Origin: Spongiibacter thalassae
GTDB lineage: Bacteria > Pseudomonadota > Gammaproteobacteria > Pseudomonadales > Spongiibacteraceae
Assembly: GCF_012272835.1 (NCBI RefSeq)
Contig: NZ_JAAWWK010000003.1
Location: 186,001 to 250,000, forward strand
DNA: 64,000 nt
Reading direction: 5' to 3'
Of this stretch, positions 2,204 to 55,415 are shown piece after piece; position 1 is the stretch's first letter; each line of letters begins with the position of its first letter. The notes beneath the pieces were generated by a model that worked only from the letters and a program-made list of their open reading frames with translations, was not told the origin of the DNA and did not search any database. Made by a program: the position numbers and the translations under genes.

Positions 2204-2227
2204 AAGCCAAGCTACCGTTATATGTGC

Positions 2228-12502: not shown

Positions 12503-12542
12503 CGACAAATAGCTTTTCGGTTTGCAGGTAATCTCACTTGCC

Positions 12543-12635: not shown

Positions 12636-12950
12636 ATTGATAACCGCATATGCGATTACTCCTATCGCACATAGAACAATAAGTATTCCTGATGCCGCCG
12701 CCCATGATCTTGCAAATGTCTCTGGCTCTCCAGCTTCGATTGTCGCAAGACCGAATTGAAATCGTCGCCCCGAAAGAAACCCAAAGATCACAGACAATCC
12801 GAAAGCTAGAAACGCTACCCCCAACTCAAGTGGCGTATTCGACCAAAATGACCAGTTTGTAACACCCGATGACCGTAAAAATGACAGGCCCATTATCAGG
12901 AAAAAAGCTGCTAAAAATGCACCGTAGAGCTTATGGAATGCGCCCTTCAT
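12630..12950 (-). CDS. Small integral membrane protein (cassette gene)
   Basis: 106 residues from the ATG at 12950; a GTG in the same frame at 12974 would lie inside the attC, so the ATG is preferred. Three predicted membrane helices: FLAAFFLIMGLSFL, LGVAFLAFGLSVIFGFL and ASGILIVLCAIGVIAYAV. No family recognised. The start codon is only a few bases from the recombination core (no clear ribosome site), and the stop TAA overlaps the downstream attC box, so it fills its cassette completely. Function unknown. Confidence 0.75.
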   Translation of the reverse strand: MKGAFHKLYGAFLAAFFLIMGLSFLRSSGVTNWSFWSNTPLELGVAFLAFGLSVIFGFLSGRRFQFGLATIEAGEPETFARSWAAASGILIVLCAIGVIAYAVINH

Positions 12951-12956
12951 GGAGAT

Positions 12957-13054
12957 CACTAACGCCTCAAACACCGGCTTGGTGAAGTTGGCGGCTTTTT
13001 TGGAACAAAAAAGGTGACAGCTTTACCAAGTCCGAGTGCTTTGATTTGTTATAG
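12957..13054. other. attC recombination site (cassettes 3/4)
   Basis: 98 bp from CACTAAC (12957-12963) to GTTATAG (13048-13054). Strong internal pairing: ACCGGCTTGGTGAAG against CTTTACCAAGTCCG, with an inner GGCTTTTTTGG/CAAAAAAGG part. Its right end abuts the stop of the yoeB gene at 13058. Confidence 0.8.
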
Positions 13055-13057
13055 CTT

Positions 13058-13324
13058 TTACTCATAGTGAGTCCACAGCCGAACAATTTTGACCGCTTTA
13101 TCCTCTTCTAACACTTGGTAAACCAATCGATGTTGGATATTTATTCTTCGGGAGTATGCACCCGCCAAGTCACCAATTAGCTTTTCATAGGGCGGCGGCT
13201 TTTGATAAGGATCTTGCTCGATAAGTTGCAGCAATTCTTGAGCTTTATTTTTAAGCCCTGATGAGGCGAGTTTGCGAGCATCTTTTTGAGCCTGCTTGGT
13301 GTAGTAGAGCTTCCAGGTCACCAA
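13058..13324 (-). CDS. yoeB: YoeB/Txe-family toxin
   Basis: 88 residues. The segment KLYYTKQAQKDARKLASSGLK, KPPPYEKLIGDLAGAYSRRIN, HRLVYQV and the end IVRLWTHYE match the Txe/YoeB ribosome-dependent RNase family. It overlaps the antitoxin gene by 7 bp. Clearly different from the other YoeB in the array (9861), so the two pairs are separate acquisitions rather than copies. Orientation is canonical, away from intI. Confidence 0.9.
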   Translation of the reverse strand: MVTWKLYYTKQAQKDARKLASSGLKNKAQELLQLIEQDPYQKPPPYEKLIGDLAGAYSRRINIQHRLVYQVLEEDKAVKIVRLWTHYE

Positions 13325-13560
13325 TCAAGCTCCTGATTGCACTCGTCGAGCCCAGCGTCCATTCCTTCACGGATGGACTCCCGCATACCAGGCACAGCCA
13401 GCAAGTTCAGAGTTTCGCTTATGGCGTTCCAGTCCTCTTCTGCCAGAAGGACTGCATTCCCCCTTTTCCCTGTAATAACAATAGGTTGATGGCTGGAAGA
13501 TGCCTCGTCAATCAAGGCATAGAGCTTAGTGCGGGCTTCTGTAGCGTTAAGTGTGGTCAT
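13318..13560 (-). CDS. yefM: YefM/Phd-family antitoxin
   Basis: 80 residues. N-terminal MTTLNATEARTKLYALIDEA and HQPIVITGKRGNAVLLAEEDW are typical of the Phd/YefM fold. The C-terminal tail (MREGIREG-like, GLDECNQELDW) would bind the toxin. A good ribosome site, GGAGGT, stands 7 bp before the start, and the palindromic operator is just upstream. Confidence 0.92.
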   Translation of the reverse strand: MTTLNATEARTKLYALIDEASSSHQPIVITGKRGNAVLLAEEDWNAISETLNLLAVPGMRESIREGMDAGLDECNQELDW

Positions 13561-13582
13561 AAGTCACCTCCAAATAACAAAG

Positions 13583-13600
13583 CGTACGCCTAAGCGTACG
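13583..13600 (-). promoter_or_regulatory. Putative operator of the second YefM/YoeB pair
   Basis: Two copies of CGTACG separated by 6 bp, 23-40 bp before the antitoxin start; each copy is itself a palindrome. The spacing (hexamer, 6 bp, hexamer) resembles the paired TGTACA boxes bound by YefM-YoeB. Confidence 0.55.
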
Positions 13601-13617
13601 TCATGTCAACCAGCAGG

Positions 13618-13689
13618 CTATAACGCCCGCAACACTGGACAATTTGGAGCGTAGCGGAAAATTGTTCCGCGTGCTTGCGTTTGTTAAGC
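13618..13689. other. attC recombination site (cassettes 2/3)
   Basis: 72 bp from CTATAAC (13618-13624) to a perfect GTTAAGC box (13683-13689). The arms include GGACAATTTGGAGCG/GGAAAATTGTTCCGC. Its right box contains the stop codon of the membrane nuclease-like gene. Confidence 0.85.
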
Positions 13690-14580
13690 ATGGATTGCCA
13701 GCCTTTCTTGAAGAGCTTGATCATCAATACTCATAAGCTCCTGTTTCGTAATAATGCAAACTAAATCTTTTCCTTTTCGGCCTTCAGTTTCTCCAGACAG
13801 CCGATTTATTAACTGATTGTACTTTTCTTCATTGTAAGCCTCCGAATCAATAACTATGAGGAGAAGTGTATTAGGCAGTCTGTTTGTCACCTGAGAATAT
13901 ACGCTCTTTGCATATATATTTTTCAAATATACTTCGCGAAGCCAGCCGAAGTTAAACCCCTTCCTTATATATTTAACTTCAACAATATAGTCCTTGGTTA
14001 ACATGGCCTTACCACGAAGCAATATATCCAATTCAACGTTCGCCACCATTTTGTTGTGACTAACGTCAAACTTATTCCCATACACCTTTGATAACTTGCC
14101 GTAGACAAGCTCTTCCACTTTTGAGTATTGCGATCTAAACGAAGTAACAATGTAGGAATCAGAATTTCCGGACTCTGCGACCTGAAGACTCTCGTATTCT
14201 GATGTTTCTTTCTCTTCTATTTCATCTTTGGTTGCATCGCGAAGTGATTGCTTCTTTATTTGGACATCGAGCCTTGTTTGCTCGTCAAGATGAAGCTGGT
14301 TTTTCCTCCAGTTTTTCAGGCCAAGGAAGATGAATATCATTCCTACAGTAGAACCGATAGAGGAGAACCATGGAATAAAGCTAACGATAAACGAAACTGC
14401 GTACTGCCGTTTAATTACCACCGCCTTAGCCACATCTGACAGTGCGTTTATCTCTGACTCTGGTCGAAATAGATCGAAAGGCTCCCTAAGAAACATCCAA
14501 GGAGCCAAAATAGATAGGGTTATCAATACTACACCCAGAGATACTATGAATTTATATAGATCTCCAAATTCAAACTTCAT
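13684..14580 (-). CDS. Membrane protein with PD-(D/E)xK nuclease-like domain (cassette gene)
   Basis: 298 residues. Two membrane helices at about 11-30 and 62-87, then a charged coiled region (90-135, KNQLHLDEQ... IEEKETSEYE) and a cytoplasmic domain from about 145. That domain has E156/E157 on a helix (SKVEELVYGKL), D185 in ANVELDILL and E201-x-K203 in DYIVEVKYI, the order and spacing of a PD-(D/E)xK fold. No known family was recognised; the nuclease call rests on this motif. AT-rich compared with the core genome. Ribosome site AAGGAG 11 bp before the start. Sits beside the TIR-like cassette; a role in phage defence is possible but unproven. Confidence 0.6.
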   Translation of the reverse strand: MKFEFGDLYKFIVSLGVVLITLSILAPWMFLREPFDLFRPESEINALSDVAKAVVIKRQYAVSFIVSFIPWFSSIGSTVGMIFIFLGLKNWRKNQLHLDEQTRLDVQIKKQSLRDATKDEIEEKETSEYESLQVAESGNSDSYIVTSFRSQYSKVEELVYGKLSKVYGNKFDVSHNKMVANVELDILLRGKAMLTKDYIVEVKYIRKGFNFGWLREVYLKNIYAKSVYSQVTNRLPNTLLLIVIDSEAYNEEKYNQLINRLSGETEGRKGKDLVCIITKQELMSIDDQALQERLAIHA

Positions 14581-35409: not shown

Positions 35410-37143
35410 ATGGATTTAAAAACACTGACCTATCTCGTGGTGGGCGCAACCTTTTTGCTGTACATCGGTATCGCGATCTGGTCCCGGGCGGGATCAACCA
35501 AAGACTTTTATATCGCCGGCGGTGGCGTCCACCCCATTGCCAATGGTATGGCCACCGCAGCGGACTGGATGAGCGCGGCGTCGTTTATTTCGATGGCGGG
35601 GTTAATCGCCTACATGGGTTACGGTGGCTCGGTATTCCTGATGGGCTGGACCGGGGGCTTTGTCTTGCTGGCGATGTTTCTGGCGCCCTATCTGCGCAAG
35701 TATGGCAAATTCACTGTGCCCGAGTTTATCGGTGATCGGTTTTACTCGCGAACCGCCCGTATTGTGGCGGTGGTTTGCCTGATTATCTGTTCGGTTACCT
35801 ATGTTATCGGGCAGATGAAGGGCGTTGGCGTGGCGTTTTCCCGCTTTCTTGAGGTCAGCTATGACACGGGCCTGTTGATCGGCATGGCCATTGTGTTTTT
35901 TTATGCCGTTGTTGGTGGCATGAAGGGAATTACCTACACCCAGATTGCCCAGTACTGTGTGCTGATAATGGCCTACACCATTCCGGCAATATTTATTTCC
36001 ATCAACCTGACCGGTAATTGGTTACCCCAATTGGGCCTGGGCAGCACCATTAGTGGCGGTGATGTCTATCTGTTGGACAAGCTGGATCAGGTGGTCACCG
36101 ACCTCGGCTTTGATCAATACACCACCAGCGAACGATTAAGTACCCTCAATATGTTTGCCTACACCCTGTCATTGATGATTGGTACGGCAGGGCTCCCCCA
36201 TGTGATTATTCGCTTTTTTACCGTGCCAAAAGTGAGGGATGCACGCAGTTCGGCGGGCTGGGCCCTGCTGTTTATTGCGATTCTCTACACCACGGCACCG
36301 GCGGTGTCGGCCATGGCCAGACTCAACCTCCACAACACTATTGCTCCACCTGGTGCCGACAGCAATCTCGCCTATGAGGAGCGTCCGCAGTGGTTTCAAA
36401 ACTGGGAAAAAACCGGCCTGCTTGCCTACGAAGACAAAAACGGCGATGGGCGGATTCAGTACACCGCCGATGCAGAGAGCAATGAAATGGTCACTGTCGA
36501 TCGTGACATTATTGTGCTGGCCAACCCGGAAATTGCCGGATTGCCCCACTGGGTCATTGCGCTGGTGGCCGCCGGTGGCCTGGCGGCGGCGCTCTCTACG
36601 GCGGCAGGTTTGCTGCTGGCGATCGCCTCGGCGATTTCCCATGATTTGCTGAAAGGGGTGGTTATGCCCAATATCTCGGAAAAAGCGGAGTTGCGGGCGA
36701 GTCGCTTGTCCATGGCCGCTGCCATTGGCTTTGCCGGTTACCTCGGTTTAAATCCGCCGGACTTTGCCGCAGGCACGGTCGCGCTGGCCTTTGGCCTGGC
36801 GGCGGCATCGATTTTTCCGGCATTGATGATGGGGATTTTCAGTCAGCGGATTAATCGGGAAGGCGCCATCGCTGGGATGATCGCCGGTATCAGTGTGACC
36901 TTGCTTTATGTGTTTCAGCACAAGGGCATCATGTTTGTGCAGAGTACTGCATTTCTCGGCGATATGCCGGAGAACTGGTTTTTCGGCATTGAGCCAAATG
37001 CCTTTGGGGTTGTGGGTGCGGTCGTTAACTTTACCGTGGCCTATGGTGTGTCTGCGGTCACTCAAGCGCCACCTGCAGAAATACAGGAACTGGTCGAAGA
37101 TATTCGCACCCCCAGCGGTGTTGGCGCAGCCCAGGAGCATTAG
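35410..37143 (+). CDS. Sodium:solute symporter (SSS family, VC_2705-type)
   Basis: 577 residues with about 13 membrane helices. The SSS signature is spread across SAASFISMAGLIAYMGYGGS, VPEFIGDRFYSRTAR and GTAGLPHVIIRFFT. A soluble loop around residues 335-350 contains DKNGDGRIQ, an EF-hand-like calcium motif. Family members import monocarboxylates such as acetate or propionate, or other organic acids. Next to a steroid operon that releases propionyl- and acetyl-CoA, a short organic acid is plausible, but the substrate is not known. Confidence 0.88.
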   Translation: MDLKTLTYLVVGATFLLYIGIAIWSRAGSTKDFYIAGGGVHPIANGMATAADWMSAASFISMAGLIAYMGYGGSVFLMGWTGGFVLLAMFLAPYLRKYGKFTVPEFIGDRFYSRTARIVAVVCLIICSVTYVIGQMKGVGVAFSRFLEVSYDTGLLIGMAIVFFYAVVGGMKGITYTQIAQYCVLIMAYTIPAIFISINLTGNWLPQLGLGSTISGGDVYLLDKLDQVVTDLGFDQYTTSERLSTLNMFAYTLSLMIGTAGLPHVIIRFFTVPKVRDARSSAGWALLFIAILYTTAPAVSAMARLNLHNTIAPPGADSNLAYEERPQWFQNWEKTGLLAYEDKNGDGRIQYTADAESNEMVTVDRDIIVLANPEIAGLPHWVIALVAAGGLAAALSTAAGLLLAIASAISHDLLKGVVMPNISEKAELRASRLSMAAAIGFAGYLGLNPPDFAAGTVALAFGLAAASIFPALMMGIFSQRINREGAIAGMIAGISVTLLYVFQHKGIMFVQSTAFLGDMPENWFFGIEPNAFGVVGAVVNFTVAYGVSAVTQAPPAEIQELVEDIRTPSGVGAAQEH

Positions 37144-37250
37144 TGTTAACAGGCCCTTGTATTCAAGGGGAAATGTCATCCAGGTGATAGTCTTTGGCTG
37201 CGCAGTGGGCTAGGGTGACCGCTCAATAATAATCTACAGGAGTGTGCACC

Positions 37251-38129
37251 GTGGGCGCGAGTACCCTGACCGATATAGGTCTCCCGTTGTCGTTGTTTCT
37301 GATTATGGTCGGCATGGGCATGACCCTGACCCCGAAAGATTTTCGCGAGGTTCTGGTCGCTCCACGGGGAACCCTGTTTGGCCTGTTTGCGCAGATTATT
37401 CTGTTGCCAGCGGTGGCCTGGGGTGTCGCTATTGCGCTGGATCTCAATCCGGCGTTGGCGGTGGGGCTGGTGATTATCGCCGCCTGTCCCGGTGGCACAA
37501 CCTCGAATTTGTTTGTATTTCTTGGCAAGGGCGATGTTGCTCTGTCGATATTACTTACTGTGCTCGCCAGTTTAATCACCATTGTCACTCTGCCAGCCTA
37601 TACCGGCATGGCACTGCAATATTTTAACGATAGCGACCAAGTGTTGGCGCTGCCGGTGATGCGTACGATTCTGACCTTGTTTGTGATTGTGTTGCTGCCA
37701 GTGATGATCGGTATGCTTATACGACGCTATCAACCCGGTCTCGCCGCCCGTTGTGAGCGCGTGCTTGGGCTGTTGGGCATGGTGGTATTGCTGGCGGTCA
37801 TAGCACTGGTGCTGGTTGAGCTAGGCAGCGAGGCGGTCGAGTTATTCAAATCTGCCGGGCTGGCGGTGATCGCACTCAATATTGTAGGCCTGCTACTGGG
37901 CCACGTTGGCGCACGGGTGATTGGCTTGCCGCCGGAACAGGCCTTCGCGGTAGCGATCGAACTGGGGATTAAAAACGGCACGCTGGGCTTGATGGTTACC
38001 CTGACACTGCTGCAGTCCGAGGCCATGTCGGTGCCGTCGGCGGTTTACGGCGTACTCATGTTTGTCTTTGGTTTTATTATGATCGGCATCGCTCGGGCCA
38101 GTGGTCTTGGGCAGGTCAAGGCGGCCTGA
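37251..38129 (+). CDS. Bile acid:sodium symporter (BASS) family protein
   Basis: 292 residues from a GTG at 37251 with ACAGGAG 9 bp upstream; an earlier GTG at 37242 has no room for a ribosome site. About 9 membrane helices with the BASS motifs MGMTLTPKDFREVL and IIAACPGGTTSNLFVFLGKGD, and a second crossover near ELGIKNGTLGLMV. Sodium-coupled importers of bile acids, pantothenate or other organic anions. The steroid genes upstream make a bile-acid-like substrate attractive. Confidence 0.87.
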   Translation: MGASTLTDIGLPLSLFLIMVGMGMTLTPKDFREVLVAPRGTLFGLFAQIILLPAVAWGVAIALDLNPALAVGLVIIAACPGGTTSNLFVFLGKGDVALSILLTVLASLITIVTLPAYTGMALQYFNDSDQVLALPVMRTILTLFVIVLLPVMIGMLIRRYQPGLAARCERVLGLLGMVVLLAVIALVLVELGSEAVELFKSAGLAVIALNIVGLLLGHVGARVIGLPPEQAFAVAIELGIKNGTLGLMVTLTLLQSEAMSVPSAVYGVLMFVFGFIMIGIARASGLGQVKAA

Positions 38130-38148: not shown

Positions 38149-39267
38149 TTAAAGGTAGTGGCTGAGGTCGCCTTTCTCCAGCCGTTCGGCCAGGAACTCG
38201 GCAAGTTCTTCGCTGCGTCTGGCGACTGACTGCCAGTCGCGAATCCGTGCAGCATCGTTACCCTGGTAGCGTTTGAAGTCGGTGCGGTCGGGGATCTTGC
38301 CATTAGGCAGGCTGGCCACCCACTCCGCAGAGGGGTGCATGATGAGGTAGTTGTCCAGATTTTCGGCACGTCGCCAGGGCACATATTTGTCGAGCCAGCC
38401 GGGAATGACCTGGTCAGAAAAATGGGGCATCAGCACCAGCCCGTTGTCCCGGTCCCCCTGCAGCGGCAGATCAATGTGGTAGTCCACCATGCCTCCGTCA
38501 CGGTAGCGTCCACCTTGACCATGGATATTGACACTCTCCATTACGAAGGGGATGGACCCACTGGCAAGCAGGGCGTCTGCCAGATTCTGTTGGGTCAGGG
38601 CAGGGAGCTCGGTATTGAATCCCGGAAAGGCGAAGCTTGGCAGTTTGCCGGGGCGGGGGTCACCGAACACTCTGCGCTGTAAAAAACGGCTGAGTAGTGG
38701 CCGGTGCAGGGTATTCAGCGCAATGGCTGCGGCGAATCCGGCGCTCATACGCAGGGGCGAGTCGTAGGCAGTCCACCCCAGCGCTCGGGCGGTAATGATA
38801 TGCAGGCGCGCCCAGGGGTGGCTGAGAATTTCGCTGCCGCCGCGGTCGCCCAGGAGGTCAATGATAATATCCCGCGCTGTCGTGGTGACTTGTCGGGGGC
38901 TGGGTTGGCCGTCGTAACACTGATGAATATAGCCGTGTTCCAGACGGTCAATGGCCGCCAGTGGGTCTGCCTGGGCGACGGCGGCGAACCGCCAACTGCC
39001 GATGGACGCGCCTACCAGCGGCAGGGGAGCACTGCGCCCTTGCAACCATTGGCCAAATAACAGGCGGTCAAGACCGGCCAGTACCAGCCATTTAGGGCCG
39101 CCAGCTGCGCCTGCAATTGCGGCCAGCTGCTGAAGGTGCAGGCCGTCCTGCTCAATCACTTTTCGGGCGGTAGCGCCGGCTTTGAAAATCAGGGGGGCTT
39201 TCAATGGGATATCCGTCTGCTTCGTCGTCGTGTTTGCGGGCGACCCGGTTTCGTGCTTTGCTGTCAC
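38149..39267 (-). CDS. Patatin-like phospholipase
   Basis: 372 residues. The nucleophile motif G-A-S-I-G has S88 and the catalytic Asp is D257 in RDGGMVDYH, the patatin Ser-Asp dyad. The glycine-rich oxyanion segment is GAAGGPKW near residue 55. No signal peptide is evident, so it is probably cytoplasmic or peripheral. Releases fatty acids from phospholipids or other acyl esters. Convergent with the BASS gene (20 bp apart). Confidence 0.88.
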   Translation of the reverse strand: MTAKHETGSPANTTTKQTDIPLKAPLIFKAGATARKVIEQDGLHLQQLAAIAGAAGGPKWLVLAGLDRLLFGQWLQGRSAPLPLVGASIGSWRFAAVAQADPLAAIDRLEHGYIHQCYDGQPSPRQVTTTARDIIIDLLGDRGGSEILSHPWARLHIITARALGWTAYDSPLRMSAGFAAAIALNTLHRPLLSRFLQRRVFGDPRPGKLPSFAFPGFNTELPALTQQNLADALLASGSIPFVMESVNIHGQGGRYRDGGMVDYHIDLPLQGDRDNGLVLMPHFSDQVIPGWLDKYVPWRRAENLDNYLIMHPSAEWVASLPNGKIPDRTDFKRYQGNDAARIRDWQSVARRSEELAEFLAERLEKGDLSHYL

Positions 39268-44339: not shown

Positions 44340-47300
44340 TTATCGCAGGGGGATTGCGATGGGCGTTAACCGGGCTCTTACCGTATTGGCGTAGGGCTCG
44401 GCGATATTTTGCGGTGTTGATGTCGGCACCATAAACTGCCATTGCTGACCGTCGATTTCGGTCAGGGGAGCGGGGGTGAAGGCATTGTCACTGTCGTGGG
44501 TAAAGAAATAGTGAATGCCGTGGGCACCAAAGGCCCCCTGCCGTTGGTCGCAGCGCAGGCTGGCGTAGTCGGTGCCGCCATTGGCCGCTTCGTAGCCGCT
44601 GATGACCCGCTGGTCGCTGGAGACTTCTCCCGGCCAGGGTCGCGCTATGGGGTCGTCGCCTGTACCGTCGTCAAGACAGGCGTCGTCGCGGTAGTAGGGG
44701 ACAATCAAGGGGTTGCTCAATGCCTGGGCATTTTTCAGCTCAAAGATGTACACCAGCGAGCCAGTGTCGCCCTTGCCGGATACCTGCTCCCAATTATTGA
44801 ATCCCAGTGCGAGATTAAACGTGGGGTCCGGCGCATCGAAGAAGGCCTGGCAGCGTTCCAGCTCCGCAGTGTCGGGAGCGCCGACGAAGGGTATTGGCAG
44901 GGCATCGAGACGCTCGATCACATCAAGAATGCCGTCGCGGATCTCAGGTGGCGTATCGCTGTAGAACTGCTCGCAACCAGGTAGCGAGTCAATCTGGCCG
45001 AGTTCGTCGTTAATACCGTCAATAGGCACCCCCTGGGGGCGGAACATGGTGTAGTAGCGCCCCTCGGCCACATTTTCATTGGCCTCGGGCACCATGGCCG
45101 AGCGGTTGTAATCCCACGAGGTGTACAAACCATCGGGCGGAATGGGGTGAACCCGGATTCGGTAACGGTAGGTAATCAACTCATTGTAAAAGGTCTCCGT
45201 CTTGGTCACGTTGGTGCCTGAGTCGGCGCCCCATACCTCACGAATGGCGCGGACTGCCCCCCGGCGCTCGCCGATCAGCGTGGAGTTAGCTTCCCAGTTC
45301 ACCTGTTCGTCCTCAAAACCCACCAGAGACACTGTGGAGTCGGGGCTTTGCTGGAAGGCACGCCCTTTCCAGCGGTCGATCAGGTCGGGGCGAGCCGTCC
45401 AATAGTCGCTGTCGGTGGTGTTATCTCCCGGGGATTTAATGCGAATATCCCGCACCATCCATCGCCCACTGGCCTCCCAGCGGTAGGTGTCGGTGGTGAC
45501 CACGGTGCCATCCCGGGGGAATCGGTCGCTGCTGGTGCGGCTGATATTTTCGCCGTCGTCACAAACGCTGCCACTGCGATTAGGGCCGTAGCCGGTGTTG
45601 CTGCTGCCGAGTTTTTCCGGGTCGTCGGCGGCGAAAAATCCGCGGTCTATCCACTGGTCGGCATCGGCGTTGCGCTGATAATTGACATAGCCGTTTGCAC
45701 TGGCAAAGCTGGAGCCGCCATTTTTCTGTACCAGATACACCGCCCGGGGCGGTGCGGCCTCACCCTGCAAGGGGTCGAGTAGAGATACGACCTGTACCGC
45801 GTCCCAGTCGTTGGGGAAATTGTTGTCGGCTTTCAGGTCGCCGGCATCGCCGGCCATGAACACCACTTCATCGTCGTCGTCGAGACCACGCACCGGGTCA
45901 GGGGTTGCCGGTGCATATTCCGCGGTGCAGCCCTCGCCATAGGCATTCCACATTTCCCGATCCCAGACATAACTGAGCTCGGGGTCTGTCCCCGAATAAA
46001 ACGAGAAGCTCGAATTGGCGTTGGCCAGGAAGTAGGGCATGCGCTCATCGACCTGAACCGGTATTTCTACAAAGCGGTCTGTGCTGCTGTCGTAGCGGTA
46101 GGCGGCGATGCGGTTGACGTCTGCGCCACTGGGGATCTGGTCTTCCATACCGGGGGCGGGATAAATCAAGGTGCCGTTGTGGGCACTGCGATTATCCAAC
46201 TCGAAGGGGCCGGGAACCGCCCCCGCTTCGCTGACGCCGTCGGGGTAGGGTTTGGCGATTCCTTGAGCTGCTGGCACGCTCCAGCCGGGCAGCTGTGCAC
46301 CAGTCAGTATTACCGGCTCAATGCGGCGCTCGGCGCTGGCGGCTTGCTGAACACTGCCACTGGCGCTGCTGCCCAGCCCCAGAGCGTTGCCCAGTTCCCT
46401 GTCGAAGTCTGCACTGTTGCCGGTGCTGGCGGCGGCAATAGCGGCGTTCACACTGTCAGTGTCGCCGCCCAGAACATTGCCAAGGTCGGCGGCAAATTGG
46501 GCAAAGGCTGCCTGAAAGCCGCTGTTAGCGGCGGCGGTGTCGCCAGTGATAAAGAGTTGTATCACTGTGGACATGCTGGCAAAGAAATCGGCGATAGCAC
46601 CGGTCAGTCCCGTGCCTCGCCCCGCATTCGAAGGAGTCTCGGGTAGCGGTGTGTGATTGCCGTAGATATCGCTGCCGCTGACACTGATGCCGTTGCCAAG
46701 GTCGGTTATGTCAGCACGGTAGACCGCCACGGGCTGGCCGTTGCGCATGGTAATTACAGGTAAGTGGCTTTCTACGGTATCGCGACCATTACTGAACACC
46801 ACTGAACCCGCCCTTACCGGTGCGGGAAGCTTTGGGTCAACATCCCGGTCGATCAGACGGTAGTTGTCGGGGTGCGGGGTATAGGACAGTGTCGCTTCGT
46901 AGCGGTGGTCGGCGTAGGCAACGGCCTCTCCGACCACAAGACTGTCACTGGCGGATACGGTAAAGCCGCTGGATTCAATCTTGTAACTGGCATTGCCGGT
47001 GTCGATATGTCGCCCGTGTACGACAAAGCGGTAGCGCCCGGTGGGCCAATTAACGGGGGCCTCAAAGGTGGCGCTCCACAGGTGGCTGCCGGCGCTCAAA
47101 CGGTAGTCGAGATGTATTTCGTAAAGGCTTGCCAGTGCCTCGCCATTGCGCCGGACAACATTCTGCCACTCGCCGTTTTGCTTTTGCTGTTGCAGGGTTA
47201 CCTTAGGGAGATCGAGCAGTGGGTCGCTACCCTCCCAGGTGAAATAGGTGGTAGCGAATCGCGGAATATCCCCCGGTTGCTGCTGGGCAATCGGGTTGCC

Positions 47301-50300
47301 GTTGAGGGGCAGGGCGGCCGGTTGGGGAACACTATTGTAGTAATCGCTGTACAGGTCGTAGTCGATACTAAGTTCATCGGTGGGGGCGGCGCTGCCGTCG
47401 CGCAGGGCGCGAACAAGGTCGAGTTGGGCGTTGAGCAAGCGTGCGCCTAACTTCCAGCCCCAGAAGGTAGTCGTGCCCTCGGTGCCGCCCAGTTCCCAGT
47501 CCGCTTTGATGTCGGGCAAGAGGTAGCCAATATGGTCCTGGGCGTAGCCCCAAATAAAGGTGTCGGTGGCTTGGTAGCCCTCGTTTGCTGCGGCCTCGAT
47601 CAGGCGCAGGCCTTGCTCAACCAGTGCTTCGCCCGGTTGGGCGAGAAACAGGGCGCTGCCGATTTTAAATGCGGTCAAGCGGGTGTCCTGGGGGACAAAG
47701 GCACCGTTTTCGCCGACGCCGTTGTCGGCGAGATCCATGGGGTCAGGCATGGGGGCGGGAAGACAGGCGGGGATGCTTTCGCCGCTGTCCGGGCCGGTTA
47801 CCGGTACGCCAAGCTCGGGGTTGCACTGGGCAGCACCCCATTCATAGGGAAACTCATCGCCGGAGTAGCCCAGGGTATCTCTGGACAGCACGATACGCTG
47901 CGAGACCACGCGAATGTCCGGCGCAAGGTCGAGGTTGTTCACCGAGTGATATATCGCCATGACCTGGGGAGCCATCAGTTTGCCATAGCGCTCCATGCCC
48001 TGGAGTTTGGGGCGCGCGACGTTGCGCGGGCTGACATCACCTGCGGCACTTTGCACCAGCATTGCCACTACGGGGCGGTCGAATTGCTGCTCGACTTCAC
48101 GTTCGATTGCGGCGAGGACATCGCCTGAAAAATGGAGGTTTTCAACATCGAAGGCGATGCCGTGGGCGGAATAGTTCACCACAGTGGCCAGTGGCTCGCC
48201 CTGGGCGTCGTCGATGCGCAGTACGCCAATACGCTTGCGCAGCTGATCCTGTTGGGCAACCCGCTCGGCGGTGTAAATGCTGCGGCTGCGGCGAAAGCCG
48301 TTGAGCCCCTGTTCATCACTGCCAGTGGCGTAACCGAATTGGGCAGGCTGCTGGTTGCGTACCGATTCGGCTACCACTTCTGCCAATTGGCTTACGATGC
48401 GGCGGAACAGTTCGGGTTGATAAAGATCCATTGCCAGCCAGAAGTAGCGGGTGGAGTGATTGGCAATCGCACCGGGGCCATCGTGGGTGTGGGTTGCCGA
48501 CATCACCAGGCCCTGTTGCAGGCTGCAACCGGCGGGCAGGTCATCACCCAGCAGTGCTTCGGCCTGTTCTGCAACCTTGACTACCACTTCGTCGAGCATA
48601 CCGATGAAATCGGTTTTGACCATAACGACGCAGTCGCTGCCATCATACAGCGACACCGCTTTGGTAATCAGTGAATCGTAATAGCCCCTTGTGGGTGGTG
48701 AGTAGGTGGCGTAGGGGGCATGTACCGCGCGAAGTTCATCGGGAACGCTGGGCAGGGGGTGTCCGTCGTGATCCTGTGCGGGGAGGAAATCGGCAAATTC
48801 ATCGACAAAGGCCTGGAAGCCTGTAGCGGGGTTTATGTCGGGGAAGTCCTCGAATTCCTGGGCGACTGGAATATAGTCGCCGCCCACGGGAGGGCGCGCG
48901 TAGCCACCCAGAGGTGTGCCCACCGGCACGCGCAATTCCCGGCGTGCGGTGCCCGCCATGAGCATAGACGGCGGCGTGCCGTTGTCGCCCTGTTGCGGTG
49001 ACGGCTCGTCGAGAATGAGTCCGGCGGCAGTGCCGGCCTGCTGGGCGCCAGCGATAGCGATGTCTCCGGCGAAGGCACCGGAACTGCTCTGCAGGGTGTT
49101 AATCGCGCTGTTGAAGTCCCCGGCGGCAAAGGCCGCCATGGCATCCCCCAAGCCTGCAGAGAGTGCATTCAGGGCGGCGTCAAAGCCATCTTCGGGTGGC
49201 GTGGGCGAGGGCTCGCCAGAGGGTGGTGCCACCGGTGGTGTTCTCGGGCAGTCGCCCGGTGAGCGCACATATTGGGTATGGCGAGTGTCGATAACCCGGC
49301 CCTGACGATGCAGGAAGTGGGCTTTCTGACACATACCATGGGCGACGCCTCGGGGGTAACCGTGGGGGTCGTGCTCATCACCTCGCGGGGCAATATTGCC
49401 GATGGGCGGGGTGACCGTTTTGCCCTCGTCAAACTCGATAAAGGCCGACTTGTCGCTGCGGCAGCCACTGACGCAGAGACTGCCGGCAGGGCTGTCGTAG
49501 GCGGTATTGTCGCGGTCAATCAGCGGCAGTTGCCAGAAATATTCAACGTCGGGATCACGCTCGGTGAAGAAGTCGAATTTGTTGTTGTAGCTGAACGGCA
49601 CACCATCGCCAGGTGCCCGCTGGTAGAGATCGGCAATCTCGACGCCCACGGTGCGGGCCATGACCTGGGCACTCCAGTGGGTCACCTGATGGTCGGCGAA
49701 GGCCGGTTGCAGCAATACCTGGTTATCTGGCCCTTTCAATACGCTGTTGTCGCTGATGTGGTGGGCATAGCCATTGTTTTCACTGCGGTCCCACAGCATC
49801 TGCATCAGCGCAAAGCCAACGTCGCGGTCAAGATCGTCGGGGTAGGACAAGTAGAGTGGCATGGCGTAGGGTGGCAGGCCAGGCTGTGTCGGGTTGAACT
49901 CACTGTCGAAGTCGACACTGCGGCGCAGCAGGGTGGAGTAGTTCATGCCCACCACACCGAGTACCGCCCGTTGTACGTCCTTGGACACCGCTGCCAGCGC
50001 ACCGCCGACTATGCCTCCCTGGGAGTTGCTGTCATAGAACACTTCGCTGTTGTCGAATACCGGCTGGCCGTTAAGGCGGAAGGCCTCGTGGGCGCCAAAG
50101 CCGTCCTGGTGGCGTAAAGCCCGGGCCAGGAACATATAATTCAACAGGCCCTGTTGGGAGGCGTCGGGGATGACGGCGAAGTTGGACAGGTCGGCCAGTA
50201 CGCTTAATACATTGGGAACATCGCCAGTAGAAAACCCGAAAAGGTCGACCGCACACAGCAGGAAGTTATAGTCGCGACTGAATTCCGGCACCCGCTCATA

Positions 50301-53300
50301 GGTCACGGCCTGGTGGCCATCGAGCAGTCCGTGACCATAGATGGCGGCTCTGGCCGGGTTGGTGGCGCTGGCTTGCTCGGGAATCTGGCAGGTAAAGCGT
50401 GTTGTCATTGTGCCGGTGCTATCGGGCAGACCGTCGCCGTATTGCTGGTCAGCGGTGCCATCAGCCGGGGAGTAAAACAGACGGTTGGGCGGCACGGAGC
50501 CACCATCGGCGATTCCGACGCCCTCGAACAGGGCCTCGCAGCCTGAGCGCATATTGTCTTCGGGAATTCCGGCACAGAGTGTTTCCGCTCGAGTGCTGAC
50601 GTTGTCGGCTGGCGCAGGGTCAGTGGGGGTCACAAAACTGGGTACGATAATGGTGCCTTCGATGCGACGGGCAATCCCGCTGCGTGGGGCTTCGGTGACC
50701 TTGTCAACGGAGAATGTCGGGGCGTTGCCAAGGGCCAGAATATTGCCGTGAGGGTCTTCCTGCTGACCGAGAGACGAAAAGGCTGTGTCTCGCATATGGC
50801 GCAGCCGATTCACGGTGTTTTCGGCGCTGGCTACGGTAAAGTCCCAAGCCAGGTAGAGGTCACTGTGGTTTATCGCGATGCCGGCGTTTTCGAGCACGGG
50901 TCTTACGTTGGCGTCCCATTGGGCGCAGCGTTCGCCTAGCTGTGGTATCGCGGTAGTTTGCTGGTCACGGCAGGTACGAAATGAGGGCTGGGCGGCAAGG
51001 TAGTCGTCGCTGTTGGCGCTGGGGAGTCGTCTCAGCACGGCGACATAGCGTTTGCCGTGATCAAAATTGCGTGCGGGACGAATAATTACCGCCGCGCGCG
51101 GTGCTTTGCCTGGGTCGGGGTTGGCCAGGTTACTGCCGGGCAGCAGTAGTCCGGCGTTCAAATCAATTTCTGCCCAAATTGGGTGGGGCTCGCCGGTTTC
51201 CGCGTCGAGCACCAGAATTGACGAACCCTCGAGGTCGAGGGATTCGCTGAGATGGGTGAGTCGCGGAGCACCGGGAATGGTGCCGTCTTCATTGGCCGCA
51301 AGACCGGGTACGAAGGTCAGCAACATTTGGCCGGGGCTGAAGCCATCGTTGCGATTCCACTCGCTGGGGTCGATGGGTTTGCCGGCGCTATTGCGCGGCA
51401 TGCCGAGAATATTGAAATTTACCCGGCGGTCACTGCCGCCACGGCTGGCCGATTGAATGCTGCCATCACTGGCGGCCACGGTGAAATGGTCGCTGGGAAA
51501 CGGAAACAGACAGTGAGAGGGGTCGAGAATATCGCAGCCCTGAACCTGAGCCTGGGCCGCGTGCAACACCACTTCGCCATTGGCCGGCAGCGGTGCGCCG
51601 CCATCGACAAGGTTCGCGTAAATCTGGTCTGCGGCGCCCTGCAGCGGTGGCCCCAGTTCGGGAACGGTTGCAATGCAGCGGCTGTTATCCGGGGTACACA
51701 CCGCAAAACCGGAGGCGTTGGCGAGCTGTTCGGCGCTGCAGCCCGTTTCATCAACGGCGGCACCCTCGGCGGTAGCCGGGCAGTTGTCGCTGTCGTTGGG
51801 CACGCCGTCACCATCGGTATCGGGGTCGGCGCCGGGCAAAACCGCGTCCGTCGATTTCGACGGATCCGGTTGCGCGGCGTCGTCTACCGCGTAAAGCGGC
51901 AGTGACACCATGCCATCGATGGTCACCGCAGGCAGGGTGACATCCCGTGATGCCGAGCTGGCGAATTGGGGATGCACCGCGTAGAACAGCACCGCAAGTT
52001 CATCGCCACTGTTCAGTCGCTCGGCAATGCCGACCAGGTCGATATCGTGTTCGCCGAGGCCACGCACGGGTTGCAGTTGGTCGTCGATCAACACGAAGTT
52101 GCCGCCGCCAGGGGCTTTCTTACCAATGCCGACAAAGGTGATGCTGTCGCAGCCGCTGTCGGTTGGCAGCGCCGGGACAGAGCAATCCTGCGCCTGTTCA
52201 TTACCACCGGCAAGACTCGATACCGTTACCTTAAGGTGGGGTATTCCCGCCAGAACGGCACCATTTCCGGCCTCGATAGTGCCAATCGGAGCGGCCACGG
52301 GTAGATTGCCGGTTAAGTTGGCCACGCCACTGCCGCCATTGGGTACGATGGCAGCGCTGATGGCACGGCGGGTGTAGTTGCTGCTGCCCCGAGGGGCAAT
52401 GACATCCGCAGCCGCCAACTTGACGGTGTCACCATTGGTGCCAAGAGCAAAGCAGGTGTCATTCTCCGGGGTACCCGGCAGCGTTGCGGGGCTGGCGTTC
52501 AGTGGCTTGAGTCGTGCGTTGAACCAGGCTTGCTGTTCATTGCTGGAGTAAAATCCGCAGCTCCCTGCGTCCTGGGTGGGTGAATCAGGAGACTGGGCAA
52601 AGGGCAGTACGTGGCCGCCGTTGTGGGTGTAAAGGGTGACATTGGCACCGGCGGCACTCAGACACTGGTAGTTCCACCAGGCGTGGTTGTAGTTAAACAG
52701 GGTGTCGGTCATGCCCTGGGTTATCAGTACGTCCAGTCCGCTGAATTCAGTCTGCGGATTCAGCGGTTCACGCAGATAGTCGCCATAGGATTCGCGGCCA
52801 TCTTCACCCCGGGGCGGAACGTTATAGCTATTGCTTACATCCGCCATCGGGACGGTATCGGCACCATAGCTGAGGTAGGGCATTGTGGGCAGGTTGCTGG
52901 CTTTACACCAGTGGCCGAGGCCACCGCGGTATTCAAACCAGTCCAGCGACTGCCGGGGCCATTGGTTGACGGCCAGTGCGCGGGCAAAGGTTTCCTGAAT
53001 AAACGGATCCTGGCCGTCGTCAAAGGCGACATTTTGCCCCGCCATCATTTTTTCGATGGTTTCCGGGCTGACGAGGCTGGCGCTGCCAGCGGCATTACCC
53101 AATCCTGACAAGGCCAGGCCCCACAGTGTTTTTACCGCATCGCCGGGGTTCAGCGCATCGCGCAGGTCGTGCCAGGTGATATCCGGTGCAATGGCGTCGA
53201 GGCGTTTTTTGGGGTCGGTGGTAAGCAGCAGAAGCTGATAACCGCCGCCGTAGCTGCCGCCCTGGGAGCCTACGAGCAGGTTGTCGCCACCCACAACGCT

Positions 53301-55415
53301 CGAGGCGTCAAGGGGGCGGCTGACAAACTCGCCGGTGGCTTCGTTGCGCCATGCCAGGTAGTCGAGATTCTGTTCCAGCCAGTCAAGGATGGCGATCAGG
53401 TAGCGGCCCTCGAACTCCGGGTCCATCACTCGAATCGAACCCGATGTGTCGCCGTAACCGCGGGGATCCCAGGACACAACGGTATAGCCGTCGCTACGGA
53501 AATTATTAAACCCGGAGGTTGAGCGAGAACTGCCATAGCCGGGCCCATGCAACATCAGGGGGTGGGCGCCACGGGCGATGTTGTTGCAGTCAAAGGTGGC
53601 GGGTTCAAGCACCTGGAAGCTGACTTGCTGGGTGACACCGGTGGTATCGACCACGGGAATGACCACCTGATAGCTGCGATTACCCGCCAGATTAAACTGA
53701 TCCGCACAGGAAGCATGGTGAATCTGGTCGGCACTGCAACCGGTGTTATTAACCGGTGCGTCGCTGGCGGTGTTGGGGCAGCTGTCGCTGTTGTCACCCA
53801 CGCCATCGGCGTCGCTGTCTGACTGTTCCGATTCATCGAAGGGGAAACTGTCGTCTTCATCGGGAGTGCCGTCGTTATCGTCGTCAGGATCGGCGTTGTC
53901 GCCGATACCGTCGCCATCGTTATCGGCGGTTTCACTATCATCAAAGGGGAAGGCGTCCTCCTCGTCATTGACGTTGTCATTGTCGTCGTCGGGGTCGGCG
54001 TTGTTGCCGATACCATCGCCGTCGTGATCGGCGGATTCACCACTGTCGAAGGGGAAGGCGTCGTCTTCGTCGTTCACGCCATCATTGTCGTCGTCGGGGT
54101 CGGCATTGTTGCCAATGCCATCGTCGTCGGAGTCAAGGGATTCGGTGTCGTCAAGGGGAAAGGCGTCATCCTCGTCATTCACGCCGTCATTGTCGTCGTC
54201 GGGATCGGCATTGTTGCCAATGCCATCGCCGTCGGTGTCGACGGATTCTGCAGCGTCGAGGGGAAAGGCGTCGTCTTCGTCGTTTACGCCGTCATTGTCG
54301 TCATCGGGGTCTGCATTGTTGCCGATGCCGTCGCCGTCGGTGTCTACTGATTCATTGGCGTCGGTGGGAAAGGCGTCGTCGTCATTGGCCACGCCGTCGT
54401 TATCACTGTCGATGTCACAGGCATCGCCTTCGCCGTCACCATCGGTGTCCTGTTGATCGCTGTTCGCGATCGTCGGGCAGTTATCGGCGCCATCACTACT
54501 GCCGTCGCTGTCGCTGTCGGCGTTAAGTGGGTCGGTTTCGCTCTCGTCGTCGTTGGGTATGCCGTCGCCATCGGCATCGGCATCACAGGCGTCACCGCGC
54601 AGATCCCGGTCGAGATCCTGTTGGCCGGGGTTGGCGATATCCGGGCAGTTGTCGTCGATATTCGCGATGCCGTCGTTGTCGGCGTCGCTCTGGCTGTCGG
54701 TGTTATCGACACAGCCGTTCTTGTCAACAACAGCGCCAGCGGCGGTGTCGGGACAGCGGTCAACGGCGTCATTGACGCCGTCGTTGTCACTGTCTTTACC
54801 GCCATCGTAGTCAAACTGGCCGTCTGCCAGGTCGGCCTCGCTGGCATCAAGGTGGGCTTTGGCGGTGGCTGCGTCGACAACGCTGCGCGGGCCATCATTG
54901 TTGGCTTCGGCAGCGAAGGCGGCGAGGGGGCCGTTATCAAAATCGGCAAAATCCACCGCTTCGGCAAAATTGTTCGCCGCGGTCAGCGCGGCGGGGCTGA
55001 TCTCGATGCCATTTTCGGGGTTGCCATCGGCGTCGATGGTCATTAGAAAACGCGCAATATTGACCCGGATATCGTCGTTACCCCCCGCCAATGAGCTTGG
55101 TGTAACGAAGGGCGAATCGGGATCAGGGGTCAGGCTGCCAAGGGAGATGTTGCCCAGACTGAACGCGACGACTTCTCCCGGGATATAACCAAAGGCGCCA
55201 TCGGCGGGCGTGCTCTGTGCCGGCGGGCGTTGGTTGCGAAGATAATGCAAACCTTTCACCGGACCGTCGATAAAGTAGCCCGTGTGGGTGGCCCGGGGTG
55301 AGCTCGGAGTGCTTGGGGTGGAGGAGCTGCTGCTGGAGCTGCCGCTGCCGCAGGCTGTAAGCAAGGTGCTGGTAATGATGAGCGACAGGGGCGCTTTCAC
55401 GAATCTCATAGGCAT
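44340..55415 (-). CDS. Giant multi-domain lipoprotein with several hydrolase modules
   Basis: 3,691 residues. A lipoprotein signal (SLIITSTLLTAC-G) is followed by a Ser-rich linker, then thrombospondin type-3 repeats (about 200-560, DxDxDG motifs, calcium binding). Module A (about 565-980) resembles an X-Pro dipeptidyl-peptidase/CocE alpha/beta hydrolase: S721 in GGSYGGG, a candidate Asp in GMTDTLFN and His in NGGHVLPF. After a short type-3 repeat, module B (about 1240-2070) has lipase-like features with S1798 in SNSQGG. Module C (about 2150-2830) is like neutral ceramidase, with H2309 and H2311 in ATHTHDGPG and H2418 in NYSAHG. Module D (about 3030-3691) is unrecognised. Two Ala-rich helical linkers (about 2080-2135 and 2930-3015) separate modules. 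Probably surface-anchored. Confidence 0.85.
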   Translation of the reverse strand: MPMRFVKAPLSLIITSTLLTACGSGSSSSSSSTPSTPSSPRATHTGYFIDGPVKGLHYLRNQRPPAQSTPADGAFGYIPGEVVAFSLGNISLGSLTPDPDSPFVTPSSLAGGNDDIRVNIARFLMTIDADGNPENGIEISPAALTAANNFAEAVDFADFDNGPLAAFAAEANNDGPRSVVDAATAKAHLDASEADLADGQFDYDGGKDSDNDGVNDAVDRCPDTAAGAVVDKNGCVDNTDSQSDADNDGIANIDDNCPDIANPGQQDLDRDLRGDACDADADGDGIPNDDESETDPLNADSDSDGSSDGADNCPTIANSDQQDTDGDGEGDACDIDSDNDGVANDDDAFPTDANESVDTDGDGIGNNADPDDDNDGVNDEDDAFPLDAAESVDTDGDGIGNNADPDDDNDGVNDEDDAFPLDDTESLDSDDDGIGNNADPDDDNDGVNDEDDAFPFDSGESADHDGDGIGNNADPDDDNDNVNDEEDAFPFDDSETADNDGDGIGDNADPDDDNDGTPDEDDSFPFDESEQSDSDADGVGDNSDSCPNTASDAPVNNTGCSADQIHHASCADQFNLAGNRSYQVVIPVVDTTGVTQQVSFQVLEPATFDCNNIARGAHPLMLHGPGYGSSRSTSGFNNFRSDGYTVVSWDPRGYGDTSGSIRVMDPEFEGRYLIAILDWLEQNLDYLAWRNEATGEFVSRPLDASSVVGGDNLLVGSQGGSYGGGYQLLLLTTDPKKRLDAIAPDITWHDLRDALNPGDAVKTLWGLALSGLGNAAGSASLVSPETIEKMMAGQNVAFDDGQDPFIQETFARALAVNQWPRQSLDWFEYRGGLGHWCKASNLPTMPYLSYGADTVPMADVSNSYNVPPRGEDGRESYGDYLREPLNPQTEFSGLDVLITQGMTDTLFNYNHAWWNYQCLSAAGANVTLYTHNGGHVLPFAQSPDSPTQDAGSCGFYSSNEQQAWFNARLKPLNASPATLPGTPENDTCFALGTNGDTVKLAAADVIAPRGSSNYTRRAISAAIVPNGGSGVANLTGNLPVAAPIGTIEAGNGAVLAGIPHLKVTVSSLAGGNEQAQDCSVPALPTDSGCDSITFVGIGKKAPGGGNFVLIDDQLQPVRGLGEHDIDLVGIAERLNSGDELAVLFYAVHPQFASSASRDVTLPAVTIDGMVSLPLYAVDDAAQPDPSKSTDAVLPGADPDTDGDGVPNDSDNCPATAEGAAVDETGCSAEQLANASGFAVCTPDNSRCIATVPELGPPLQGAADQIYANLVDGGAPLPANGEVVLHAAQAQVQGCDILDPSHCLFPFPSDHFTVAASDGSIQSASRGGSDRRVNFNILGMPRNSAGKPIDPSEWNRNDGFSPGQMLLTFVPGLAANEDGTIPGAPRLTHLSESLDLEGSSILVLDAETGEPHPIWAEIDLNAGLLLPGSNLANPDPGKAPRAAVIIRPARNFDHGKRYVAVLRRLPSANSDDYLAAQPSFRTCRDQQTTAIPQLGERCAQWDANVRPVLENAGIAINHSDLYLAWDFTVASAENTVNRLRHMRDTAFSSLGQQEDPHGNILALGNAPTFSVDKVTEAPRSGIARRIEGTIIVPSFVTPTDPAPADNVSTRAETLCAGIPEDNMRSGCEALFEGVGIADGGSVPPNRLFYSPADGTADQQYGDGLPDSTGTMTTRFTCQIPEQASATNPARAAIYGHGLLDGHQAVTYERVPEFSRDYNFLLCAVDLFGFSTGDVPNVLSVLADLSNFAVIPDASQQGLLNYMFLARALRHQDGFGAHEAFRLNGQPVFDNSEVFYDSNSQGGIVGGALAAVSKDVQRAVLGVVGMNYSTLLRRSVDFDSEFNPTQPGLPPYAMPLYLSYPDDLDRDVGFALMQMLWDRSENNGYAHHISDNSVLKGPDNQVLLQPAFADHQVTHWSAQVMARTVGVEIADLYQRAPGDGVPFSYNNKFDFFTERDPDVEYFWQLPLIDRDNTAYDSPAGSLCVSGCRSDKSAFIEFDEGKTVTPPIGNIAPRGDEHDPHGYPRGVAHGMCQKAHFLHRQGRVIDTRHTQYVRSPGDCPRTPPVAPPSGEPSPTPPEDGFDAALNALSAGLGDAMAAFAAGDFNSAINTLQSSSGAFAGDIAIAGAQQAGTAAGLILDEPSPQQGDNGTPPSMLMAGTARRELRVPVGTPLGGYARPPVGGDYIPVAQEFEDFPDINPATGFQAFVDEFADFLPAQDHDGHPLPSVPDELRAVHAPYATYSPPTRGYYDSLITKAVSLYDGSDCVVMVKTDFIGMLDEVVVKVAEQAEALLGDDLPAGCSLQQGLVMSATHTHDGPGAIANHSTRYFWLAMDLYQPELFRRIVSQLAEVVAESVRNQQPAQFGYATGSDEQGLNGFRRSRSIYTAERVAQQDQLRKRIGVLRIDDAQGEPLATVVNYSAHGIAFDVENLHFSGDVLAAIEREVEQQFDRPVVAMLVQSAAGDVSPRNVARPKLQGMERYGKLMAPQVMAIYHSVNNLDLAPDIRVVSQRIVLSRDTLGYSGDEFPYEWGAAQCNPELGVPVTGPDSGESIPACLPAPMPDPMDLADNGVGENGAFVPQDTRLTAFKIGSALFLAQPGEALVEQGLRLIEAAANEGYQATDTFIWGYAQDHIGYLLPDIKADWELGGTEGTTTFWGWKLGARLLNAQLDLVRALRDGSAAPTDELSIDYDLYSDYYNSVPQPAALPLNGNPIAQQQPGDIPRFATTYFTWEGSDPLLDLPKVTLQQQKQNGEWQNVVRRNGEALASLYEIHLDYRLSAGSHLWSATFEAPVNWPTGRYRFVVHGRHIDTGNASYKIESSGFTVSASDSLVVGEAVAYADHRYEATLSYTPHPDNYRLIDRDVDPKLPAPVRAGSVVFSNGRDTVESHLPVITMRNGQPVAVYRADITDLGNGISVSGSDIYGNHTPLPETPSNAGRGTGLTGAIADFFASMSTVIQLFITGDTAAANSGFQAAFAQFAADLGNVLGGDTDSVNAAIAAASTGNSADFDRELGNALGLGSSASGSVQQAASAERRIEPVILTGAQLPGWSVPAAQGIAKPYPDGVSEAGAVPGPFELDNRSAHNGTLIYPAPGMEDQIPSGADVNRIAAYRYDSSTDRFVEIPVQVDERMPYFLANANSSFSFYSGTDPELSYVWDREMWNAYGEGCTAEYAPATPDPVRGLDDDDEVVFMAGDAGDLKADNNFPNDWDAVQVVSLLDPLQGEAAPPRAVYLVQKNGGSSFASANGYVNYQRNADADQWIDRGFFAADDPEKLGSSNTGYGPNRSGSVCDDGENISRTSSDRFPRDGTVVTTDTYRWEASGRWMVRDIRIKSPGDNTTDSDYWTARPDLIDRWKGRAFQQSPDSTVSLVGFEDEQVNWEANSTLIGERRGAVRAIREVWGADSGTNVTKTETFYNELITYRYRIRVHPIPPDGLYTSWDYNRSAMVPEANENVAEGRYYTMFRPQGVPIDGINDELGQIDSLPGCEQFYSDTPPEIRDGILDVIERLDALPIPFVGAPDTAELERCQAFFDAPDPTFNLALGFNNWEQVSGKGDTGSLVYIFELKNAQALSNPLIVPYYRDDACLDDGTGDDPIARPWPGEVSSDQRVISGYEAANGGTDYASLRCDQRQGAFGAHGIHYFFTHDSDNAFTPAPLTEIDGQQWQFMVPTSTPQNIAEPYANTVRARLTPIAIPLR
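53820..54344 (-). repeat. Five 105-bp tandem repeats encoding 35-residue calcium-binding units
   Basis: Inside the giant gene. Each unit reads like DTDGDGIGNNADPDDDND followed by GVNDEDDAFP; units 1-3 are nearly identical and later ones diverge (for example DNVNDEEDAFPFDDSE). They form part of the type-3 repeat stalk. DNA-level similarity suggests recent unit duplication. Confidence 0.85.

Follow-up and report, generated by a model that had tools for sequence, protein, structure and literature searches.

What would a gammaproteobacterium do with one gene that encodes a string of hydrolases, and how could such a gene be built? The window (the whole stretch of Spongiibacter thalassae DNA that was analysed, 64,000 nucleotides) contains on its minus strand, at positions 44340-55415, an ATG-to-stop frame of 3,691 aa with zero internal stops and no frameshift, and a whole-genome search returned a stop-free open frame of 3,697 aa at the same place. 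The initial annotation had described one uninterrupted frame for a lipoprotein joining at least three different hydrolase modules. This description held: the frame is continuous and not divided into separate genes, modules A and C pass their Pfam cut-offs, B is predicted to be an alpha/beta hydrolase, and both B and C match hydrolase folds. Homologues with the same modules also exist, with A, B, C, and D in one frame in three relatives (G019, G115, and G116).

A SelO gene lies upstream, 352 bases from the giant-gene start, and a terminator-like hairpin lies past the giant-gene end at 44309-44292 (called by a consensus scan that returned 15 such sites across the region, where shuffled sequence averaged 10.5). 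Given the 3′ hairpin and the gap to SelO, the giant gene looks like an independent gene. Its G+C is 0.60-0.61 over most of its length compared to about 0.54-0.59 in the flanks; recent transfer was considered as the origin of this difference and set aside, since two congeners carry a related gene at the same place. Pfam returned seven TSP3 stretches, Peptidase_S15, and Ceramidase_alk on the 3,691-aa protein, while the three NCBIfam matches were all below cut-off and all in the repeat region. With profiles built from relatives (40 rows for D, 13 for B, 5 for C, and 8 for A), the stretches matched by module profiles amounted to 77% of the chain.

The protein begins with a signal peptide and a lipobox, LLTA-C22, with G after Cys22 (55350..55415, minus strand like all features below; read by eye), and by the lipobox criterion it is a predicted bacterial lipoprotein. 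An N-terminal domain at about aa 43-205 (54801..55289) has matches in several relatives and belongs to no Pfam family. The calcium-binding-type TSP3 repeat stalk follows at aa 206-560 (53736..54800), with 7 stretches matching PF02412 (E 1.6e-21) and a 105-bp × 5.1 tandem DNA array at 53868-54398; the TSP3 units are the 105-bp DNA repeats, with 80-83% matches. A short second TSP3 piece was seen by eye between A and B (aa 1196-1225; 51741..51830). Two Ala-rich linkers lie further along the chain, one between B and C, defined by composition (aa 2061-2139; 48999..49235), and one before D (aa 2933-2996; 46428..46619), which scored 58.7 bits with a linker model whose training set includes this row. 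Their Ala contents are 23% (B-C) and 22% (C-D) compared to 10.8% for the whole protein. Lipobox, type-3 repeats, and Ala-rich linkers were thus all present, as the initial annotation had read them. Of the 25 D frames from Gammaproteobacteria that were examined, 23 have an Ala-rich segment of ~64 aa ahead of D (L049 and L050 do not), irrespective of what comes before it (A, B, C, E, Z1, or the N-terminus). Matches of the linker model to these 23 rows are by construction, because it was trained on them, and its one further match (L028) was spurious; the sole independent result is that it matched no other module border. This result suggests, from sequence comparison, that the segment travels together with D.

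Module A (subtype A0; aa 561-1195; 51831..53735) was assigned as an S15/CocE-like alpha/beta hydrolase from its Pfam match, its triad, and its place in the tree. The score for PF02129 (Peptidase_S15) was 48.6 bits against a cut-off of 23, with profile positions 45-145 of 262 covered, and the Ser-Asp-His triad S721-D904-H935 was unchanged in 14/14 rows (13 distinct), which bears out the earlier proposal of a CocE-like hydrolase with a triad at S721. The best PDB sequence match was a 'Lipase' (8yzo/8yzn) and was weak (E 7.8e-6, no single stretch significant). The score above cut-off and the triad are what A shares with the Peptidase S15/CocE family; it differs from that family in sitting in a TSP3-stalk lipoprotein, fused here to B, C, and D. 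Since S15 proteins comprise both peptidases and esterases, A may cut either kind of bond, and a possible role in peptide degradation derives solely from the name of the S15 family.

Module B (subtype B1; aa 1226-2060; 49236..51740) belongs to no curated family, and its assignment combines alignment, predicted fold, residues (S1798, D1908, and H1909), and tree. The alignment contains 12 other relatives at 42-66% identity. Pfam returned no family on the window's own B row, Lipase_bact_N was weak in 2/13 B rows (best E 0.006), none of the NCBIfam lipase models matched at E ≤ 0.01, and no PDB sequence matched. A predicted structure of modest confidence (pLDDT 64.4) gave 176 Foldseek matches at E ≤ 0.001 (best E 4e-6). 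The 50 listed were of alpha/beta-hydrolase type, judged by title, and among the matches listed TM-scores were low, 0.14-0.18 of the query and 0.16-0.48 of the target. In 22 B rows, one of them truncated, Ser was kept in 21/21 and His in 20/21, with the nucleophile motif GNSQGG. The second Ser-nucleophile module claimed at S1798 is accordingly found there, with Ser in all 21 rows that reach the site. On a model of modest confidence, B is predicted to have an alpha/beta-hydrolase fold. VolA of Vibrio cholerae is described as an outer-surface lysophospholipase lipoprotein (PMC5500766), and the likeness is in mode only, a surface lipoprotein acting on outside lipids; unlike VolA/Pla-1-type lipases, B has no NCBIfam lipase match and only the weak Lipase_bact_N matches given above. 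Other families of the order also have B-type hydrolases, in frames 728-775 aa long (G050, G062, G088, G095, and G098).

Module C (aa 2140-2935; 46611..48998) is a ceramidase-type zinc hydrolase according to Pfam, alignment with known structures, and conserved rows. It scored 59 bits with PF04734 (Ceramidase_alk; cut-off 32.1) and matched the neutral ceramidases of P. aeruginosa (E 2e-14) and human (E 5e-11; PDB 2ZWS and 4WGK). The zinc residues of the P. aeruginosa enzyme are H97, H204, E411, and Y448; by a hand count on the alignment, they align with H2309, H2418, E2596, and Y2631, and S2462 aligns with the serine of the GDVSP motif. The metal-site residues and S2462 were kept in 8/8 rows, and H2309 and H2311 stand where the neutral-ceramidase-like module had been placed. 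For the human enzyme, His196, Tyr579, Ser354, Tyr591, and Arg257 have been named (PMC6952831). Among these residues, His196, Tyr579, and Ser354 have counterparts in C, the pocket residue Tyr591 is not kept (T in 4/5 rows, A in 1/5), and Arg257 may have a counterpart, its column holding Gly in 5/5 C rows and an invariant Arg standing two columns later. Since Tyr591 is not kept and the Arg257 column is Gly, ceramide itself may be the wrong substrate for C. Compared to the neutral ceramidase family, with which it shares the metal-site residues, the GDVSP motif, and a score above cut-off, C is one module within a giant chain and is missing the human pocket Tyr591.

Module D (aa 3020-3691; 44343..46358) represents a conserved family defined by profile, model, and Foldseek, predicted to be mostly beta. 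The initial annotation had listed it as an unrecognised C-terminal module of 650 residues. No Pfam family matched the window's D row, as that label implied, and only scattered weak ones appeared in a few others of the 40 rows; its size is about 670, and it has relatives in 49 loci. Its model (pLDDT 79) gave weak Foldseek matches to galactose mutarotase (1snz, E 3e-5, TM of target 0.40), the YidC periplasmic domain (3bs6, E 1e-3, TM 0.55), and OpgG, with TM normalised to the target of 0.16-0.46 in the 7 matches at E ≤ 0.001 and 0.55 in the next-ranked YidC row. With these folds D has a weak structural likeness, and no sequence relation was found. The predicted fold of D is probably a beta-supersandwich, on a weak match. 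Peptide deformylase was also considered for D and rejected, as the sole PDB sequence matches had E 0.024 or worse.

A pattern-seeded scan of GTDB contigs from 84,980 species genomes, which gives a lower bound, found at least 49 D loci. Grouped by record title, D shares its frame with another module in 19/23 gammaproteobacterial loci compared to 0/26 others, a count limited by the seven module models, all from Gammaproteobacteria except that of D, and by the frames among the 26, of which 7 run off their contigs (L026, L033, L039, and L043-L046) and 3 are broken (L047, L052, and L053). The four gammaproteobacterial loci without a co-framed module are L015, L016, L049, and L021, the last cut by a contig end; the 26 others come from Actinomycetota, Deltaproteobacteria, Chloroflexi, and more. 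On one Deltaproteobacterial metagenome contig (L052, 6660-12870), B was seen in the frame just ahead of that of D, with D itself frame-broken. D occurs in 17/85 genomes of the order of the Fontimonas locus (G119), one copy each, and in 1/369 genomes sampled from the class, the window's own. It is full length in 4/115 relatives including the window's own, with weak partial matches (19.6-23.3 bits) in 3 more. The D profile matched none of 17 congeners, and a plasmid collection contained no match to D.

Frames of the fused relatives span 1,729 to 8,600 residues, and compared to the window's A-B-C-D these relatives carry extra modules: Z1 and C2 (ceramidase-like), E (PHP-like), and other alpha/beta hydrolases. 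With the ceramidase model (cut-off 32.1), Z1 of L015 scored below cut-off at 26.2 bits and C2 above it at 37.6 bits; E is DUF3604-like below cut-off, with a PHP-like HxH motif at its start (by eye). Among the longest, G116 is Z1-B-A-B-C-D-C2 in a single 6,247-aa frame and G115 is B-A-B-C-D in a frame of 4,361 aa or more, as its contig ends within the frame. G019, a metagenome-assembled member of the window's family, carries Z1-B-A-B-A-E-C-D-E-C2 and an S9-like stretch in one frame of 8,600 residues, which contains a run of N close to its beginning; an A module lies upstream in a 1,544-aa frame. Z1-B-D recurs in nine loci (L005, L006, L008, L011, L013, L018, L019, L024, and L050, with L005 and L019 truncated where their contigs begin) and Z1-D-C2 in L020 and L022. 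Shorter or different sets are A-D in L017, D-E in L007, E-D-C in L085 (both ends cut), and Z1-C-D-E in L009, with B in the next frame. A-D also occurs in L012 and L014, where Z1 and C2 are adjoining genes, and D, Z1, and C2 are three separate neighbouring genes in the Nevskiales-type loci L015 and L016. A TrkA-like flanking gene (named by eye) is common to six loci, in which the D/Z1/C2 set is split in L015 and L016 and D is fused in L018, L020, L022, and L024. Further C2-like genes adjoin the D locus in L016 (14942-20671) and L018 (14546-17611), and in L015 a lipoprotein-like glycoside hydrolase family 92 gene (12062-14467) directly follows the separate Z1, C2, and D genes.

We propose that the protein is an outer-membrane-anchored multi-hydrolase chain for ester- and amide-linked lipids, diversified by gain and loss of cassettes, a reading to which we assign a probability of roughly 0.55. 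The lipoprotein would be anchored in the outer membrane and probably displayed at the cell surface, with the TSP3 repeats as a stalk raising the enzymes off the membrane. A would act as an ester-type and B as a lipase-like alpha/beta hydrolase, C as a zinc amidase of ceramidase fold, and D may bind, or act on, part of the same substrate. Jointly the modules would cleave the ester and amide linkages in complex lipids (glycero-, sphingo-, or N-acyl lipids) near the cell, which would then take up the products, and the set of modules would shift between species through in-frame gain or loss of cassettes where repeats or linkers join them. That the chain is surface-exposed, has lipids as its substrate, combines the action of its modules, and stays whole is what we infer here. 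The suggestion of a tethered lipid degradation machine, already made from the letters, gains support from the same modules occurring as separate neighbouring genes and from the extra ceramidase-like modules that longer relatives contain. A type II secretin scored above cut-off in the genome, and its presence is only permissive for surface display. Near the locus lie a patatin-like phospholipase gene (38149-39267, minus strand, 5 kb from the giant gene; 28.7 bits against a cut-off of 27.7), a relative of which also lies close to the giant gene in three kin genomes (L017/L064, L021, and L031), a Bile-acid-symporter-family (SBF) gene (37242-38129, plus strand), and a sodium:solute symporter gene (35410-37143, plus strand). 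Secretin, patatin-like gene, and transporter genes fit surface lipid digestion and are no proof of it; clustering of neighbours for a pathway that would name the substrate gave little beyond lineage synteny.

The separate genes and the long, Ala-rich linkers before C and D would also suit a precursor that is cut at its linkers into anchored and released enzymes, the long frame being a device for co-expression and not a tether. No protease site was identified, however, and the six split genes (Z1, C2, and D of L015 and L016) each have their own lipobox-like signal (by eye), suggesting that anchoring matters for each enzyme. We consider such processing unlikely.

In the genus, B occurs in 5/18 genomes including the window's and C in 3/18, while the A profile matched 18/18 at E 1e-20, near full length in 16. 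The 16 near-full-length A matches (15 genomes) are in frames of 695-1,115 aa, and 12 of these short frames (11 genomes; L144-L155) were inspected. At E 1e-10, all 12 hold A and lack the other six modules; by eye, 11 of them start with a lipobox-like sequence and contain TSP3-like repeats (L150 does not), and none of the 12 lies beside the window's neighbour genes. From these A-only frames, the common form in the genus seems to be a one-enzyme stalked lipoprotein and the long chains the exception.

We compared the SelO locus of the window with those of two congeners, G001 and G010. SelO is upstream of the giant gene in all three (56% over 467 aa in G010; 101 aa of SelO in the fetched stretch of G001), and both congeners have a 171-aa ORF between the two genes. 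The contents of the locus are A0-B1-C-D in the window, A0-X-Z1-B2 in G001, and Z1-A1-B2 in G010, X being another alpha/beta-hydrolase-like stretch for which every Pfam match is below cut-off. The shared protein parts of G001 and G010 are 91-96% identical, whereas whole in-frame cassettes differ: at the DNA level, G001 1-1379 matches G010 1-1379 at 94% and G001 5248-7625 matches G010 1114-3530 at 91%, the A0-X block of G001 is flanked by two TSP3 arrays where G010 has one single array, and subtype A1 is in G010 only. The TSP3 units, being DNA repeats that match at 80-83%, would lend themselves to recombination, which may drive the change of cassettes. In another pair, one small upstream gene is common to G018 (A-D, 1,847 aa) and G020 (A-E-A-B, truncated at a contig end), and D of G020 is on another contig.

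In the trees the A and B subtypes are old: B1 comprises the window, the first copy of G019, G012, G013, and Algiphilus, and B2 the second copy of G019, G001, and G010, in a tree where the B rows of L122 and L009 were flagged for long branches; A0 comprises the window, G001, and the upstream A of G019, A1 G019 and G010, and A2 G019, L017, and the first copy of G020. With subtypes read from the trees, the genes of the window, G001, G010, G012, and G013 each correspond to a portion of the G019 series in the same order. A strict rule of ordered subsets was rejected, being broken by G020 (L122; A2-type, E, another A, and B) and by the E-D-C order of L085, so that module order along this series is a tendency and not a rule. 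We estimated dN/dS by a simple counting method in two pairs, neither of which carries D or A at the same place. Between G012 and G013 it was 0.068 for the whole gene, 0.125 for the N part, 0.048 for Z1, 0.035 for B, and 0.060 for C; between G001 and G010 it was 0.118 for the N part, 0.045 for Z1, and 0.157 for B. All values are far below 1, and with the exception of B between G001 and G010 the enzyme modules have lower values than the N part. The modules covered are under purifying selection in these congeners, and the module set would diversify by gain and loss of cassettes, of which we infer the direction and mechanism.

These values bear on two further explanations. Tethered lipid-type hydrolases with shifting module sets resemble conflict systems in evolutionary style, and the chain could be a weapon or predation factor, its hydrolases damaging the membranes of adjacent cells when they touch. 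Against it stand the low dN/dS of the modules covered and the occurrence of D homologues beyond Gammaproteobacteria without another module of the set in frame, and the scanned neighbours in the window included no recognisable gene for toxin delivery or immunity; we judge a weapon quite improbable. It is more improbable still that the modules are largely inactive as enzymes and act instead as stalk-borne adhesin or binding domains, as binding and aggregation are tied to other giant bacterial surface proteins (PMC12863079). Catalytic residues are kept in almost all rows, and the enzyme modules of G012 and G013 (0.035-0.060) fall under their N part, a pattern of lower dN/dS that in G001 and G010 is true for Z1 and untrue for B. 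Finally, some relatives are metagenome-assembled and the G019 contig contains its run of N, but an assembly or sequencing artefact can be dismissed with near certainty because the C-D join is found again in G019, G115, G116, and L009 and other one-frame fusions occur in named-strain genomes (e.g., L014, L017, L018, and L022).

Multi-enzyme chains are well known in polysaccharide breakdown and natural-product synthesis. Among the papers listed by keyword searches of the open-access literature, there was no multi-enzyme chain of this scale for lipid-type bonds and nothing relevant on these organisms and ceramidase. Giant1-5 of Apilactobacillus kunkeei are surface proteins of 3,000-8,000 aa that diversify by intragenic recombination (PMC12863079). 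They resemble the present family in giant size, surface location, and diversification, and differ in that Giant1-4 have beta-solenoid domains, whereas enzyme modules make up most of the chain here. Giant surface proteins and multi-enzyme chains are already known; what seems new is a chain of lipid-type hydrolases whose modules are reshuffled, and the family-wide reshuffling of modules is a stronger finding than the fusion of three hydrolases alone.

The family offers natural experiments, with modules fused or split at one locus and with two congeners whose genes differ by whole cassettes although their shared parts are 91-96% identical, so that the building and trimming of giant multi-enzyme proteins can be put to a direct test. 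It also points to B, D, Z1, C2, and E as enzyme families that have no curated function. More tentatively, and at somewhat less than even odds, the family may be a reshuffling string of surface enzymes that ranges from TSP3-stalk A-only lipoproteins (706-1,077 aa in the inspected congener loci) to chains of ~13 modules, with whole catalytic cassettes gained and lost in frame at TSP3 or linker joints; the figure of ~13 modules and near 10,000 aa in G019 holds only if the frames flanking its N run are one gene. If this is true, the family would be a lipid-digesting counterpart of the modular synthases, in which the module list of each species mirrors the lipids that it encounters.
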